DNA from: Parasutterella excrementihominis YIT 11859
Lineage (GTDB): Bacteria > Pseudomonadota > Gammaproteobacteria > Burkholderiales > Burkholderiaceae_F
Assembly (NCBI RefSeq): GCF_000205025.1
Contig: NZ_GL883677.1
Span: 62,001-126,000 of the forward strand
DNA: 64,000 nt
Reading direction: 5' to 3'
How positions within the stretch are numbered: position 1 is the first letter of the stretch; each line of letters starts with the position of its first letter. Position numbers and translations under genes: made by a program. Below, in pieces: positions 58,946 through 64,000 of the stretch. The notes beneath the pieces were generated by a model. It ran no database searches. It was not told the origin of the DNA and worked only from the letters and a program-made list of their open reading frames with translations.

Positions 58946-58967
58946 TATTTAGCAATATAGCTAAATA
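58946..58967 (+). promoter_or_regulatory. palindromic operator, candidate ArsR-family site
   Basis: TATTTAGC (58946-58953) and GCTAAATA (58960-58967) are perfect eight-base arms around AATATA. A half-site-like TTAGC occurs again at 58973-58977. The dyad ends 45 bases before the start of the molybdoenzyme gene, and an ArsR-family gene is the last gene of the same operon, so autoregulatory binding is likely. Confidence 0.65.
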
Positions 58968-59012
58968 GCAAATTAGCTTATCCCCAATCTCTTTCCCTAA
59001 GGAGAACATCTA

Positions 59013-61562
59013 ATGAAACTCACAAGAAGAGTCTTTATAGAGCTAGCCGGCAGCTCCGCCCTCATGGCCTCTGCCCCGTCTTTATTAGCTCAGGGTGTAA
59101 CGGTTAAAAGACTGCCGTTGCCTTGCAGCCCGGCTCAGGGCAGATGGATCGGATCTGCCTGCCAAGGATGCACTCAGTACTGTGCAATTGAAGTTTTTAA
59201 TCAGAACGGAAGAGCCACCCGAGTCCGTGGGAACCAACATTCTCAAGGCAATCACGGTTTCTGCTGTCCTAGAGGCCATTTGATTCCGCAAGAAAATTAC
59301 GATCCTGATCGTATTAAGCAGCCGTTAAAGAGAACAAATCCGCAAAAAGGCAGAGGTATCGATCCCAAATGGATTCCTATCACTTGGGATGAGGCTTTAG
59401 ATATCGTCGCAGATAAGATGATGGAGCTTCGTAATGCCGGCGAACCTGAGAGACTGCTTTATCTAAAAGGCCGCTACGGAAACACGTCTCACGCCCTTTT
59501 ATACGGAACTGTCGCGAAACTGTTCGGCTCTCCGAATAATTTTTCGACTTCCGCCCTTTGTGCCGAAACTGAGAAAATGGGACCCGGCTATACACAAGGA
59601 CTTTTCTCTTATAGAGATTACGATCTTGGAAATTCAAAGTGTGTTGTTTTCTGGGGTACAGATCCTTTCGCATCCAACCGCCAGGTCCCGAATGTGATTT
59701 CTCGACTTGGAAGCCTCCAAAAGAACGGCACTCTGATTACCGTTGATCCGCGGCTTTCTACAGCTGCTGCGAAATCCAAAGAGTGGCTGCCGCTTCTTCC
59801 CGGAACAGACGGAGCTTTAGCGAATGCGATTGCCCACGTTCTATTAACCGAAGGACTTTGGAACAAAGAATTCGTCGGTGACTTTGTTGATAGTAAAAAC
59901 CAATTCATTGCCGGTAAAACGGTCAAGCCGGAAGCCTTCAAGGAAAACAATACGCTCGGCCTCGTCACCTATTGGAACGAAGAGGCAAAAGATTGGACGC
60001 CTGAAAAAGCGGGCAAGGAATGCAGACTCGATCCCGAACAGATCCGAAGAGTAGCTAGAACGCTTGGCAAAGCTGCTCCTAATGTCATCGTCTGGATGGG
60101 CCCAGGCGTTTGCATGAACCCGAGAGGAACCTATTCCGCCATGGTTGTCCATGCACTCAACGGCATCCTTGGTTCCGTGGATAATGTCGGCGGCACTCAT
60201 GACCCTGTTAAAGCCTTGACCGGCAAGTATCCGTCAATGGACAAATATGTGGATGAGTTGGCCAAGACGCACGGAAAAGGCAAGAAGATTGACGGCCGCG
60301 GCGATAAGGACATGCCGGCAGCCATGAAAGCGAAGCTGGGCAGCGGTGTTGTCACCAACAACATTGCTAACTACATGCTTGAACATCCTGACTTTATTAA
60401 GGTCATGATTAGTTCTTGGACGAATACTCCTTTTGCAGCGTCTGACGGCAAACGCTGGGAAAAGGCATTAAGCAATGTTCCTTTCTTTGTCCACATGGTT
60501 CCTTTCCCGTCTGAAATGACCCAGTTCGCAGACATTGTGCTCCCCTCAACCTTCAATGCAGCCGAGGGAATGGGCGCGGTTACCGGTTTCGGCTCTATGC
60601 ATGCCTGGACCTCTCTGCAGCAGCCCACTTGCGACAGAATTTGGGATGTAAAACAGGAAGAAAACGAAGTCACTTGGCTTCTCGCAGAAAAGCTGGCAAA
60701 GAAAGGCTGGCCCGCACTGCTGAACTACTATGCCAACGAGTTCGCTGATCCGGAAACGGGTGCAAAGCCCACAAACGAAAAAGAATTCCAATTAATCACA
60801 ACCAAGATCGCTTCCGCTCCGTGCTGGCTCCATGGTTCCAAGCCGATTCCCGGAGATCAAATCAATGGTTGGGAAGACTTCAGACAAAAGGGCATGCATA
60901 ACTCTGCCCCTCAGACTTACAAGAAACATTGGGGCGGCAAGTTCCCGACTCCCAGCGGCAAGTTTGAATTTGTTTCCGGCGATCTGAAGAAAGTGTTGGA
61001 AACGCATGCAGCGAAATACAACTCAACTCCGGACCAAATTCTTGAACTGTGTAATTATCAAGCCAGGGGCATTAAAGGCTGGATGCCGCATTACGAAGCA
61101 CCGCTGCGCCACGGCGATCAACAGCAATTCCCGTTCCTTTTCATCGATCATAAGAGCCGCTTGAACAGAGAAGGACGTTCTGCAAATCTTCCTTGGATGC
61201 AGGAGTTCAAGAAATGCGATGCGGGCGACCGCTCCTGGGGAGATGTCCTTAAGATCAACCCGACCGACGCTAAAGCGCTCGGCCTCAAGGATAACGACCT
61301 GGTCGAAATATCTTCTCCGGTCGGCACTATTGTCACAGAGGTCAAACTTTGGGAAGGCGTAGGTCCGGGCACTGTTGCAAAAGCCTACGGACAAGGCCAT
61401 TGGGCATACGGCCAGATTGCCGCCAAGGAATACGGCAAGACACCGCGCGGCGGCAACAATAATGAAATTCTTGTTGATGACTACGATCGTTTATCCGGTA
61501 CTTCCTGCAGAAACGGCGGATACACACGCGTCAGCATCAAGAAGGTTTCTAGCAACAATTAA
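59013..61562 (+). CDS. arrA: molybdopterin oxidoreductase catalytic subunit, ArrA-like (respiratory arsenate reductase)
   Basis: The 849-residue protein is a Tat-exported DMSO-reductase-family enzyme. The signal is LTRRVFIELAGSSALMA. A 4Fe-4S cluster is bound by Cys at residues 50, 53, 57 and 84 or 85 (CQGCTQYC then CCPRG). The Mo ligand is Cys183 in SALCAETEK, and KGRYG at 152-156 lines the active site; these blocks, with YRDYDL and WGTDPFASNRQVP, resemble ArrA more than polysulfide or thiosulfate reductases. It would reduce arsenate to arsenite in the periplasm. The related arsenite oxidase-type ArxA remains possible. The ATG follows TAAGGAG. Electron partner, chaperone and ArsR genes follow. 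Confidence 0.65.
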   Translation: MKLTRRVFIELAGSSALMASAPSLLAQGVTVKRLPLPCSPAQGRWIGSACQGCTQYCAIEVFNQNGRATRVRGNQHSQGNHGFCCPRGHLIPQENYDPDRIKQPLKRTNPQKGRGIDPKWIPITWDEALDIVADKMMELRNAGEPERLLYLKGRYGNTSHALLYGTVAKLFGSPNNFSTSALCAETEKMGPGYTQGLFSYRDYDLGNSKCVVFWGTDPFASNRQVPNVISRLGSLQKNGTLITVDPRLSTAAAKSKEWLPLLPGTDGALANAIAHVLLTEGLWNKEFVGDFVDSKNQFIAGKTVKPEAFKENNTLGLVTYWNEEAKDWTPEKAGKECRLDPEQIRRVARTLGKAAPNVIVWMGPGVCMNPRGTYSAMVVHALNGILGSVDNVGGTHDPVKALTGKYPSMDKYVDELAKTHGKGKKIDGRGDKDMPAAMKAKLGSGVVTNNIANYMLEHPDFIKVMISSWTNTPFAASDGKRWEKALSNVPFFVHMVPFPSEMTQFADIVLPSTFNAAEGMGAVTGFGSMHAWTSLQQPTCDRIWDVKQEENEVTWLLAEKLAKKGWPALLNYYANEFADPETGAKPTNEKEFQLITTKIASAPCWLHGSKPIPGDQINGWEDFRQKGMHNSAPQTYKKHWGGKFPTPSGKFEFVSGDLKKVLETHAAKYNSTPDQILELCNYQARGIKGWMPHYEAPLRHGDQQQFPFLFIDHKSRLNREGRSANLPWMQEFKKCDAGDRSWGDVLKINPTDAKALGLKDNDLVEISSPVGTIVTEVKLWEGVGPGTVAKAYGQGHWAYGQIAAKEYGKTPRGGNNNEILVDDYDRLSGTSCRNGGYTRVSIKKVSSNN

Positions 61563-61576
61563 CCCGGGAGAGAGAA

Positions 61577-62338
61577 ATGAAATTTGGAATGATCATTGAT
61601 TTGAATTTATGCTCCTCCTGCGGAGCTTGTGCTCTGGCGTGTAAGGCGGAGAATAATACCCGTACGAGAGGCGAAGGACAGTCTTTCAACTGGGCTGACT
61701 TTCTGCAGGAAACTAAAGGGACTTTCCCAAACAGCACTCAAATCGCAATCCCCGTGATGTGCAATCATTGCGAAAATCCGCAGTGCGTAAAAGTTTGTCC
61801 TACAGGAGCCATGTTCATCAGTCCCGAGGGTGTCGTACTTCACAATGATGAAGTATGTATCGGCTGCCGTCTCTGTCAAAAGGCCTGCCCATACTCCTCT
61901 GCTGAGTTGGGTCCTGAAAGTCTTGACGGAAAATCTTATTCGGTTATTAGTTTCAATCCGAAAGGAGTCGATCCGAGAGGAGACGCCGCAACAAGGCCCG
62001 TTCTTATTGAGGGCGTTACAGGAGGAGCTTTAGAACTGGCAAAGAAAGCAGGAGCGCTTCCTGCTTATGCCAACCTGTTCAAAGCCGGAGATACGGCCGC
62101 TCAGAGAAAAGAAGGCGTAGTGGAAAAATGCAATTTCTGCTATCACCGCACTTCCAACGGTCTTAATCCCGCCTGCGTGGATGCCTGCCCTGCCGGAGCA
62201 AGAATTTTCGGCGATTTAGACGATCCTAAATCTGCTATTTCGGCCAAGATGAAAGCTTCGAAGGTCTGGAGACTTCAAGAAGACAAGGGAACCAATCCTA
62301 AAGTCTTCTATGTCGGACAGTTCTCTCCCAGAGAATAA
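61577..62338 (+). CDS. arrB: 4Fe-4S electron-transfer subunit, ArrB-like
   Basis: The 253-residue ferredoxin subunit carries four cysteine clusters for [4Fe-4S] centres: CSSCGACALACKAEN (residues 12-22), CNHCENPQCVKVCP, CIGCRLCQKACP and, late in the protein, CNFCYHR paired with CVDACP. LNPACVDACPAGARIFGDLDDP is close to ArrB and related DMSO-reductase-family B subunits. It passes electrons to the catalytic subunit, from which its gene is separated by 14 bases with a GGGAGAG site. No membrane-anchor subunit gene is adjacent, as in arrAB loci that use a CymA-like quinol oxidase encoded elsewhere. Confidence 0.78.
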   Translation: MKFGMIIDLNLCSSCGACALACKAENNTRTRGEGQSFNWADFLQETKGTFPNSTQIAIPVMCNHCENPQCVKVCPTGAMFISPEGVVLHNDEVCIGCRLCQKACPYSSAELGPESLDGKSYSVISFNPKGVDPRGDAATRPVLIEGVTGGALELAKKAGALPAYANLFKAGDTAAQRKEGVVEKCNFCYHRTSNGLNPACVDACPAGARIFGDLDDPKSAISAKMKASKVWRLQEDKGTNPKVFYVGQFSPRE

Positions 62339-62347
62339 CTAAGTAAT

Positions 62348-62373
62348 TCGGAAGAGGCTGAAGCCTCTTCCGA
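62348..62373 (+). repeat. perfect 12+12 base inverted repeat between the arrB-like and chaperone genes
   Basis: Arms TCGGAAGAGGCT (62348-62359) and AGCCTCTTCCGA (62362-62373) are separated by only two bases. No T-run follows, so it is not a normal terminator. It may protect or process the mRNA between the enzyme genes and the weakly translated chaperone gene. Confidence 0.75.
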
Positions 62374-62388
62374 CAATCTAAATACACT

Positions 62389-62940
62389 ATGCAAACGACA
62401 CCGCTTAACCTTATTCTTCTTGGTTTATTTGAGCCGGAACAAGAGCTCAGAGAACTGCATGTTTTCAAAAAAGCAGCTGAAAATCTCGATGAAGATTTAG
62501 CAAGAAGAGCCGTTCTTTTGGACCAACTGTACACACAGGGAACTGCCAGTTCTAAAGCGTTTAAAGAAATGCTTCTGGACTACACAAGATTATTCCTGAG
62601 TCCCGGTACGCCTTTGGCCAAAAACTATTTGACTTGTTGGAAAACAAAGTTAGGAGATAATATTCTAGAAGAATATCTTTCTTACCTTGAGAAAAAAGGA
62701 TTCAAAACAGAAAAAGACATTAAAGAACTTCCGGAACATATCGTCCCCGTTCTGGAAGTTTATGAATTATTAGATAAAGAAGAAAAGCCTGAGTACTTTG
62801 AAAAATTTCTCAGCAAATTTATCCTGGACTGGTCGAAACTATTGGAGGTTGAGGCCAGACACGGCTTTTATAAAAATCTAGGGAAATTTTTTACTGAATG
62901 GGCTAAATTGGAGGCAAAAAAGAATGGCGCAGTTCCCTGA
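62389..62940 (+). CDS. TorD/DmsD-family molybdoenzyme chaperone, ArrD-like
   Basis: The 183-residue all-helical protein matches the TorD family in layout: LLDYTRLFLSPGTPLAKNYLTCWKTK in place of the usual E-Y-x-x-L-F-x-G-P block, and a C-terminal helix pair with HGFYKNLGKFFTEWAKLE. Such chaperones hold the catalytic subunit until Mo cofactor and Fe-S insertion and guard the Tat signal. No good ribosome binding site precedes the ATG, in contrast to its neighbours. Its last 17 bases overlap the ArsR gene. Confidence 0.75.
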   Translation: MQTTPLNLILLGLFEPEQELRELHVFKKAAENLDEDLARRAVLLDQLYTQGTASSKAFKEMLLDYTRLFLSPGTPLAKNYLTCWKTKLGDNILEEYLSYLEKKGFKTEKDIKELPEHIVPVLEVYELLDKEEKPEYFEKFLSKFILDWSKLLEVEARHGFYKNLGKFFTEWAKLEAKKNGAVP

Positions 62941-63232
62941 GATTTATACGGAACAAGCAAAAATATTTAAAGCAATCGGGCATCCTGCAAGATTGATGAT
63001 GGTTGAAGCTTTACTTGAAGGCCCCAAAACCGTCTCTGAGCTTACTGCTATCGTTCAGTTAGAAATGCCCACTGTCTCACGGCATTTAAACTGTTTGAAG
63101 GAAGCTCAAGTGGTCAAGTCTGAAAAAAAAGGAAATTCTATTATTTATTCAGTAGAACTGACTTGTCTTAAAAATTTCCTTCATTGCTCCAGAAGCGTAG
63201 TGGTGATGAAGAAAAGCAAGACTCTCCTCTAG
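62924..63232 (+). CDS. ArsR-family metalloregulator
   Basis: The 102-residue winged-helix protein has KAIGHPARLMMVEALLEGPKTVSELTAIVQ and the recognition helix MPTVSRHLNCLKEAQVV. The classical arsenite site in helix 3 (ELCVC) is missing. Instead, Cys residues occur in the recognition helix region (HLNCLK) and as C-x6-C near the end (LTCLKNFLHC), suggesting a C-terminal metalloid or metal site, a variation known among ArsR proteins. A GGAGG site lies inside the chaperone gene. As last gene of the operon it probably represses the promoter near 58946-58967 and may also act on the facing permease operon. Confidence 0.85.
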   Translation: MAQFPEIYTEQAKIFKAIGHPARLMMVEALLEGPKTVSELTAIVQLEMPTVSRHLNCLKEAQVVKSEKKGNSIIYSVELTCLKNFLHCSRSVVVMKKSKTLL

Positions 63233-63288
63233 CCTTAATTAACGATATCTCACAGGCGTTGGTTTCTATCGGCCAACAGCTACGATCC

Positions 63289-63333
63289 CCGATCCCTTGC
63301 TAAAACTTTTTGAAAAAAGAGCCAAAGGATCGG
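63289..63333. terminator. large stem-loop between convergent operons
   Basis: CCGATCC (63289-63295) pairs with GGATCGG (63327-63333), extended by further pairs with one mismatch, and an inner CTTTTT/AAAAAG stem. It lies between the ArsR gene and the small Cys-rich protein gene, which converge, so it can terminate both. Confidence 0.6.
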
Positions 63334-63353
63334 AGATTGTCTTCGCAGAGTTT

Positions 63354-63515
63354 TTATTTTTTATCCTTTTCTCCGCCAACTTCTTTGGCTTCGTCGCTCT
63401 TTTTCGGCACGGATTCGGTCTTTTCTTCATTTTTTACGATGTTAAGCTGACAGCAGCAGCCTTCTTTCTTCTTATTCCCAAAAAATCTTGAAAAGAATGA
63501 TTCTTTTTCTGCCAT
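63354..63515 (-). CDS. small Cys-Cys-Cys protein downstream of the ArsP-like permease
   Basis: This 53-residue protein starts MAEKESFFSRFFGNKKKEGC and continues with C-C-Q-L-N, so three consecutive cysteines are at residues 20-22; the rest is charged (Lys/Glu) with no hydrophobic core. The ATG at 63515 follows GTGGAG, and it lies 15 bases after the permease stop on the same strand, so the two form an operon. The amphipathic start could bind the membrane or permease, and the triple Cys could bind trivalent arsenic, another thiophilic metal, or take part in redox. It is too short for standard gene length cut-offs. No family is recognised with certainty. Confidence 0.75.
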   Translation of the reverse strand: MAEKESFFSRFFGNKKKEGCCCQLNIVKNEEKTESVPKKSDEAKEVGGEKDKK

Positions 63516-63530
63516 ATTTGCTCCACTAAA

Positions 63531-64000
63531 TTAAAACGAAAAATAATTAAATAAATAACCTGTCACGCATGCAACCGAAAACACCGACAGAAGAAACGCT
63601 ATCAGCATTTGTTTTTTAAAAATAGAGTTCAACAATGCAACTTCCGGAATGCTTGCACCAGCACCTCCGATAATAAGCGCAATCAACGCCCCAGGTCCAA
63701 CTCCGGCGCCATATAAAATTGAAGCAATCGGAATCATGGTTTCGGTTCGGATGTAGAGCGGAATACCGACCAATGCTGCAAGAGGAATTGCCCACCAGGC
63801 GCTTACACCGGCAAATTTTTCGACAATATCCATCGGCAGCGCTTCATGAATAAAGCCGCCGACTAATGCACCGAATAAAAGATAAGGAAAGACCTTCTTA
63901 AGCAGTCCAAGGGAATCTCCGAAAGCCAACACGACTGCATGCCAAAACTTCTCTCGGAATGTTCCTGTAAAAGAATGCCAGGCCTCCGACGAAGTTTTGC
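63531..64000 (-). CDS. ArsP/COG0701-family permease, C-terminal part
   Basis: The frame is open to the window edge, so about 156 C-terminal residues are visible and the N-terminus is outside. At least four membrane segments are present (VFPYLLFGALVGGFIHEALP, WWAIPLAALVGIPLYIR, GPGALIALIIGGAGASIP, MLIAFLLSVFSVACVTGYLF). The GIPLYIRTETMIPIASILYGAG and GGAGASIPEVALL segments are typical of DUF318/ArsP-type permeases, which export organoarsenicals or act as metal exporters. A GTG at 63932 is not taken as the start because coding clearly continues upstream. The gene faces the arr-like operon and is followed by a small Cys-rich protein gene. Confidence 0.75.
   Translation of the reverse strand, partial: KTSSEAWHSFTGTFREKFWHAVVLAFGDSLGLLKKVFPYLLFGALVGGFIHEALPMDIVEKFAGVSAWWAIPLAALVGIPLYIRTETMIPIASILYGAGVGPGALIALIIGGAGASIPEVALLNSIFKKQMLIAFLLSVFSVACVTGYLFNYFSF

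Follow-up and report, generated by a model that had tools for sequence, protein, structure and literature searches.

The locus that closes a stretch of 64,000 nucleotides from Parasutterella excrementihominis YIT 11859 (the window, meaning this whole stretch) raises the question of whether a gut bacterium carries an arsenate reductase of the ArrA type, and of how the product of such an enzyme would be sensed and expelled. Judged from its sequence, the catalytic subunit encoded here belongs to the ArrA clade, and the enzyme of the operon rather probably reduces arsenate, under product-type control and together with an exporter of its own. The features of the locus are as follows:

59013-61562, + strand: arrA-like catalytic subunit gene (849 amino acids; open reading frame with profile and structure matches)
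61577-62338, + strand: arrB-like electron-transfer subunit gene (253 amino acids)
62389-62940, + strand: TorD-family chaperone gene, in the arrD position (183 amino acids)
62924-63232, + strand: ArsR/SmtB regulator gene, ArsR1 (102 amino acids)
63354-63515, - strand: open reading frame of a small protein with a Cys-Cys-Cys motif, the CCC protein (53 amino acids; 15 bases downstream of the permease gene)
63531-64000, - strand: C-terminal part of an ArsP_1-family (PF03773) permease (cut by the window end; 318 amino acids in full)
contig C4:126454-126816 (= L001:6455-6817), beyond the window: second ArsR gene, ArsR2 (120 amino acids, ICVCE motif; overlaps the permease gene)
58949-58964, no strand: dyad TTAGC-AATATA-GCTAA, candidate operator (degenerate second copy at 58965-58980)

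The preliminary description of this DNA had proposed arrA-, arrB-, torD- and arsR-like genes in one operon with a facing permease, and the open reading frames, together with the Pfam and NCBIfam matches, bear out both this arrangement and the presence of an ArsR (PF01022, HTH_metalloreg) and an ArsP-like permease (PF03773) belonging to the locus. As the gaps between arrA, arrB, torD and arsR (14, 50 and -17 bases) fit one operon, these four genes (59013-63232, + strand) are probably co-transcribed. The Tat export claimed for the catalytic subunit agrees with its twin-arginine start, MKLTRRVFI, judged by eye, and the proposed Sutterellaceae host agrees with the nearest relatives, Parasutterella muris and Turicimonas muris, which we take from their names to be gut species. 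Both of these close relatives (2/2) have the order arrA-arrB-torD-arsR-permease-CCC protein, and arrA is 88-90% identical in all pairs of the three species. In T. muris and P. muris, the genes from arrA to the permease all lie on the same strand, whereas the permease gene of the window genome stands in inverted orientation, with an ArsR of its own.

Placement of the catalytic subunit within ArrA

The best NCBIfam model for the catalytic subunit is ArrA (927 bits), and the best solved structure is the ArrA of Shewanella sp. ANA-3 (845 bits), to which the gut enzyme is 47.2% identical over 816 residues, as compared with 29.1% identity to a plasmid ArxA-type protein. The segments KGRYG and SALCAETEK, pointed out in the preliminary description, are both found in the protein, with the KGRY motif at residues 152-155, and the ligands of the [4Fe-4S] cluster (Cys50/53/57/85) and of molybdenum (Cys183; Cys193 in ANA-3 ArrA) are kept. 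The Fe-S ligands of ANA-3 ArrA are given as Cys61/64/68/96 in PMC10654088, and an (R/K)GRY motif with neighbouring arrDE genes serves to recognise ArrA in PMC11283718.

The phylogenetic check called for by the preliminary description places the catalytic subunit inside the ArrA clade and apart from ArxA, in a maximum-likelihood tree (quick method, 40 rows) in which the place of reference PsrA, PhsA and TtrA sequences is taken by paralogues of the window genome only. The rows are the gut trio, 25 of the 78 environmental relatives, ANA-3 (the sole row with a solved structure), another GRY-type row, five of the 12 sequences with the motif GRGWG and, as paralogues, five of the 16 molybdopterin enzymes of the window genome, and long-branch warnings were given for three paralogues and ANA-3. 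The environmental relatives (loci L053-L130, n = 78) come from the best 80 of 509 matches, a sample that leaves the ArrA of Bacillota, Chrysiogenota and Campylobacterota outside, and gut or environmental origin was assigned from record titles and memory. Outside the gut species, this environmental set, with arr modules from Rhodoferax, Ramlibacter and Propionivibrio among others, is the nearest within the best 80, at 54-63% identity.

The sequences of the window, T. muris and P. muris form one clade within the GRY-type clade (30 rows, SH-like approximate likelihood ratio test, SH-aLRT, 97), and this trio groups with 14 environmental rows (SH-aLRT 99), 12 of which are titled as alpha-, beta- or gammaproteobacteria or their genera. 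A topology that holds every other ArrA together and leaves out the gut trio is rejected by the approximately unbiased (AU) test (p 0.0165). A tree in which the 25 environmental rows are forced together without the gut trio is not rejected (AU p 0.09), so the exact place of the trio inside ArrA is not fixed.

Enzymes of this kind are sparsely distributed. At an E-value of 1e-100 or better, the share of genomes with an ArrA/ArxA-like match is 5/369 for the class, 11/399 for the order and 4/398 for the phylum, with the window genome counted in, and matches above 900 bits occur in 5 of 67 family genomes, three with Thr and two with His at the pocket position discussed below. The plasmid collection yielded a single distant match at E up to 1e-60, of the arx type. 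In one family genome, G033, a GRY-type ArrA occurs together with a GRGWG (ArxA-type) enzyme (L047, L050). Three metagenome-assembled genomes, titled Chitinophaga pinensis (L066), Selenomonadales (L089) and Bordetella parapertussis (L115), carry an arrA like that of the environmental proteobacteria, which probably reflects wrong titles or mixed bins.

The presence of arrAB in the gut Sutterellaceae, put forward by the preliminary description, stands as an observation and falls as a novelty, since it is already in print: a 2014 survey of 188 Burkholderiales genomes reports arrAB solely in P. excrementihominis YIT 11859, with 46% (ArrA) and 42% (ArrB) identity to ANA-3 and no ars-like genes (PMC3954881). 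That arrAB and the present locus are very probably the same or near-identical. No paper on Turicimonas with arsenate was found in the open-licence literature. The arsR and permease genes beside arrAB add to this account, as the locus has two ArsR genes and an ArsP_1 permease where that survey reports no ars-like genes, and residue 189 is inspected here. According to the same survey, the arr genes of ANA-3 are flanked by arsDABC (PMC3954881), whereas those of the gut species are flanked by arsR, the PF03773 permease and the CCC protein.

An exchange in the substrate pocket

Five residues of ANA-3 ArrA, Tyr166, His189, Tyr210, Ser190 and Lys198, are described in PMC10654088 as the counterparts of presumed substrate hydrogen-bonding residues. 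ANA-3 ArrAB (PDB 6cz7) and the gut enzyme are alike in their domains, in the Fe-S and molybdenum ligands, in the (R/K)GRY motif and in four of these five contacts (Tyr166, Ser190, Lys198 and Tyr210), all conserved in the gut trio, and they differ in that ANA-3 His189 aligns with Thr179 of the window enzyme. The comparison of active-site residues suggested by the preliminary description thus finds the motifs, the cysteines and four contacts kept and the fifth exchanged. Position 189 is Thr in all three gut sequences and His in each of the 97 others examined (78 environmental, ANA-3, six GRY-type from L132, L167, L168, L169, L176 and L177, and 12 GRGWG sequences, some possibly from the same genomes). 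A search of the open-licence literature found no published report of the change and, to our knowledge, His189 is not a published criterion of ArrA membership.

The exchange was set against 160 columns that never vary across 77 ArrA rows from outside the gut lineage (75 environmental, ANA-3 and L132), with L055, L078 and L091 left out for a stop inside the matched stretch. Seven of these columns are changed in all three gut rows (W67Y, R163K, H189T, L335A, S487A, F578W and R794G), and it is columns 163 and 189 that sit in active-site segments. As controls, ANA-3 alone differs at 23 of 173 invariant columns and L132 at 10 of 160, neither of them at 189, and among six other single rows five differ at no column and L109 at 3 of 153. 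Since the controls ANA-3 and L132 also depart, such departures per se are not specific to the gut lineage; their location in the pocket is. The stem of the gut clade is long (0.65 changes per column). Between the three species, arrA has a pN of 0.06-0.07 against a pS of 0.77-0.78, so the exchange sits in a strongly constrained gene. Decay of arrA was considered and rejected, as there are no in-frame stops in the three species and pN/pS is about 0.08-0.09, with synonymous sites saturated.

The strongest of the rival explanations starts from this residue. It holds that the enzyme descends from ArrA but has come, in the gut lineage, to act on a different substrate, for example pentavalent arsenicals of the methylated or aromatic kind or some other oxyanion, the change from His to Thr opening or re-tuning the pocket and the trivalent products being expelled by the ArsP-type permease. 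The restriction of Thr189 to the three gut species, the long stem, the changed columns in active-site segments and the strong constraint on arrA since the change all speak for it. On the other hand, KGRY and four of the five contacts are retained, Thr is still able to form a hydrogen bond, and other lineages also differ at invariant columns. We therefore regard a shift of substrate as possible, though considerably less likely than the reduction of arsenate itself.

Regulators, permease and electron supply

Both regulators exceed the HTH_metalloreg cut-off of 55 bits, ArsR1 with 83.2 and ArsR2 with 76.2. In ArsR1, also matched by PF01022, Cys81 and Cys88 (CX6C, near the C-terminus) are conserved in all three gut species, while ArsR2 is of the CVC type (ICVCE), the motif that binds As(III) in the ArsR of E. 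coli. The C-terminal tail of ArsR2 has a CCC motif (KEICCCF), as has the small protein behind the permease.

Upstream of arrA, an identical 16-base dyad, TTAGCAATATAGCTAA, is found in 3/3 gut species, in surrounding non-coding DNA that has mostly diverged. The dyad is followed by its degenerate second copy, and the two end 48 and 32 bases before the arrA start codon; the stretch singled out in the preliminary description begins at 58946, nearly coinciding with the dyad start at 58949. Sites of the form TTAGC-N6-GCTAA number one in the window genome (G000) as against two and six in the genomes of the other gut species (G049 and G063), and their number is not above chance, as the control read backward gave 6, 7 and 4. 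With the exact spacer, the dyad occurs once per genome, before arrA, in 3/3. When three mismatches were allowed in the window, 3 of 100 shuffles gave an equal number of matches. The TTAGC-N6-GCTAA dyad is consistent with an ArsR operator and is a candidate for recognition by ArsR1. A different dyad, ATGCAA-N4-TTGCAT, and a variant of it precede ArsR2 at two places (3 strand-wise matches, with 0/200 shuffles giving as many), and a scan for consensus promoters and terminators gave only matches at the level of shuffled sequence.

The permease matches PF03773 (ArsP_1) with 80.6 bits for the part inside the window and 171.6 bits for the genome place, which is the single place of this family in the window genome, and it has a PFCSCS motif. 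The NCBIfam equivalogs SaoE and SO_0444 match it below their cut-offs, and no solved relative was found at E up to 1. ArsP itself exports trivalent organoarsenicals, and the naming of the family after it is a further point for a shifted substrate. Of the 67 family genomes, exactly the three with the Thr-type ArrA have a homologue above 50% identity, with homologues at any level in 17 of 67 and the next best at 31% identity. The window permease (L001:5532-6488) is about 55% identical to either relative, and the permeases of T. muris and P. muris are 73% identical to each other. A later replacement of the window permease from elsewhere was dropped as an explanation, its nearest family relatives being the other two arr-linked permeases.

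The open reading frame of the CCC protein, missing from the gene list of the preliminary description, lies directly behind the permease on the same strand in 3/3 gut species, even where the permease is inverted (53 amino acids and a gap of 15 bases in the window, 48 and 6 in T. muris, 53 and 6 in P. muris). All three proteins share a similar N-terminal stretch and the Cys-Cys-Cys motif, and no Pfam or NCBIfam family was found for them, apart from one match at chance level (E 0.097). Among 25 PF03773 loci for which 400 or more downstream bases were available, a small CCC reading frame follows the permease at 3/3 gut loci as against 0/22 others, some of which have a small thioredoxin-like reading frame there instead; the background rate is 10 in 1987 small reading frames. 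The CCC protein is a candidate soft-metal(loid)-binding partner of the permease, and its limitation to the gut lineage among these 25 loci also counts in favour of a shifted substrate. No prior report of the CCC protein or of the dyad was met in the open-licence literature, where no search was aimed at either.

The second protein of the operon is matched best by the NCBIfam ArrB model (228 bits, below cut-off) and, among solved chains, by 6cz7_B, and its 16 cysteines, at the same positions in 3/3 gut species, are sufficient for four [4Fe-4S] clusters. The third is a chaperone of the TorD/Nitrate_red_del kind (PF02613, 38.6 bits; TorD and DmsD NCBIfam models match weakly), 70% identical to its counterpart in each of the two related species. 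Cytochromes of the NapC/NirT type are encoded at two places in the window genome, and about 1.9 kb past the permease gene of P. muris stands a homologue with 88% identity to one of these two. In P. muris, the arr operon is followed by a block (L052:13502-18539, and L136) of C69-type peptidase, NapC-like cytochrome, ModE-type regulator and ModA/ModB genes, names assigned by eye except for the cytochrome, and a similar peptidase-cytochrome-regulator block is found on contig C14 of the window genome.

The environmental arr loci, where genes were counted by tblastn with one query per gene on contigs that are often short (49 of 78 loci have at least 12 kb), resemble the gut loci in their arrB-like (75/78) and TorD-like (65/78) genes, and all have His189 (78/78). 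A PhnD-like, kinase or sigma-54 regulator gene is found at 42 of 78 of them against 0/3 gut loci, counting the loci only; among the 49 loci of at least 12 kb, 28 have one or another of these genes and 21 have all three. Permeases of PF03773 lie near 10 of the 78 and ACR3-like genes near 18.

A similar arrangement is seen in the arx-type island of plasmid pORIO3 of Cereibacter azotoformans ORIO, which has the same succession of chaperone gene, CVC-type arsR and permease. It differs in its GRGWG motif, in having an NrfD anchor and PhnD-like, kinase and regulator genes, and in that the permease is followed by a small thioredoxin gene where the gut loci have the CCC protein; its catalytic subunit is just 29% identical. 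On this plasmid, typed as conjugative (L141, 35666-49762), genes for thioredoxin, rhodanese and CcdA come after arsR and the permease, and the whole may be a module for thiol-linked export of arsenic.

As for the wider surroundings, the window lies on contig C4 of a genome of 2.83 Mb with 16 molybdopterin-oxidoreductase places, a large repertoire for this size. Outside the window, in a cluster at L001:10256-14362, look-alikes of a NikR-type regulator, a SAM methyltransferase and a FecBCD-type ABC importer were recognised by eye.

Proposed function and its meaning for the gut lineage

From the computed homology, clade, gene order, footprint, co-occurrence and residue change, we infer the substrate, the electron donor, the ligands of both regulators, the role of the CCC protein and the direction of transport. 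ArrAB would be the periplasmic arsenate respiratory reductase of Parasutterella and Turicimonas, receiving quinol electrons through a NapC/CymA-like tetraheme cytochrome encoded elsewhere. By way of the four Fe-S clusters of ArrB and the single one of ArrA, the electrons would reach molybdenum, the site at which As(V) would be reduced to As(III), while the TorD protein would aid cofactor loading and guard Tat export. ArsR1 would repress the operon at TTAGC-N6-GCTAA as long as its Cys81/Cys88 pair has bound no trivalent arsenical or other thiol-binding ligand, and the PF03773 permease, controlled in the window species by the second, CVC-type ArsR, would export trivalent arsenic species, perhaps received from the CCC protein.

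Several findings weigh against the reduction of arsenate, the exchange at position 189 and the long stem among them. The curated NCBIfam cut-offs are missed by both subunits (927 against 1600 bits for ArrA and 228 against 450 for ArrB). The ArrA cut-off is reached by 0/67 family genomes, and it looks tuned to a narrower set, as the two His-type family relatives, at 1024 bits, miss it too. An arrE-like gene had no match at 3/3 gut loci, the single query used for this Fe-S protein matching at just 10 of 78 environmental loci. NrfD is found at 16 places in the three gut genomes and at none on the arr contigs (3/3), so there is no local quinol anchor; ANA-3 likewise is not known to have an NrfD gene beside arrAB. 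The PhnD-like, kinase and sigma-54 genes were not found at the three gut loci, the rest of the genomes being unsearched, and the lack of PhnD-like sensor genes at the gut locus also favours a shifted substrate. The window genome has no ArsC of family PF03960 (the search covered neither the other types of ArsC nor ArsB or ArsM), and of its three SBF-family places the best, judged by eye, is of the bile-acid-symporter type and not ACR3, the two weaker ones being unexamined. Finally, a review counts Parasutterella among the genera that decrease under arsenic exposure (PMC11940129).

A second rival explanation, which we consider improbable, is that arsenate is reduced chiefly for detoxification or redox balance and not for growth, the enzyme replacing a missing cytoplasmic ArsC together with the permease. 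The missing PF03960 ArsC, within the limit given above, the location of the genome's sole PF03773 permease at this locus and the ArsR-type control agree with such a role. Against it, the conversion of As(V) to As(III) outside the cytoplasm is not detoxifying by itself, and periplasmic, Tat-exported, quinol-linked enzymes are typically respiratory.

The preliminary description had also allowed for a chalcogen reductase, and a polysulfide, thiosulfate, tetrathionate or selenate reductase of the PsrA/PhsA/TtrA kind, misread as ArrA, would share the superfamily and fit a genome with 16 places for molybdopterin enzymes; the scores make this very unlikely, and it was set aside, as PhsA (220 bits) and TtrA (62.5 bits) fall far below the ArrA model and thiosulfate reductase (155 bits) far below the ArrA structure. 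An arsenite oxidase of the ArxA type, likewise entertained there, is the least credible of all and was set aside on motif and tree, for although ArxA is the sister family and the arx-type island also has arsR and permease genes, the gut enzyme has KGRY and not GRGWG, the five GRGWG rows form a separate clade with a support of 100, and residue 166 is Gly in 12/12 GRGWG-recognised sequences and Tyr in the gut trio. The motif GRGWG is taken here as the ArxA signature, and no paper carrying it was found in the open-licence literature.

Arsenate reduction under product-type control thus remains the preferred reading. More speculatively, and with little confidence, the loss of His189 may have re-tuned the Parasutterella/Turicimonas arsenate reductase to a host-associated enzyme with another or broader acceptor, such as methylated or aromatic pentavalent arsenicals. 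Its control would have passed to ArsR, as a sensor of the product, and its own PF03773 exporter would be supplied by tiny Cys-Cys-Cys carriers that form a new family.

What is added here is the recurrent gene order, the CCC protein, the shared dyad and the change of His189 to Thr in three gut species. This natural change at a presumed contact offers a ready probe of Arr specificity, and in the CCC protein, exporters of the ArsP type may have a partner that has so far gone unrecognised. As the genus Parasutterella is common in the gut and a cultured strain exists in Turicimonas muris YL45, which belongs to a defined mouse consortium, the claim about arsenic speciation in the gut can be tested in the laboratory. 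If this lineage does reduce arsenate or organoarsenicals, it would be a defined gut source of the more toxic trivalent forms.

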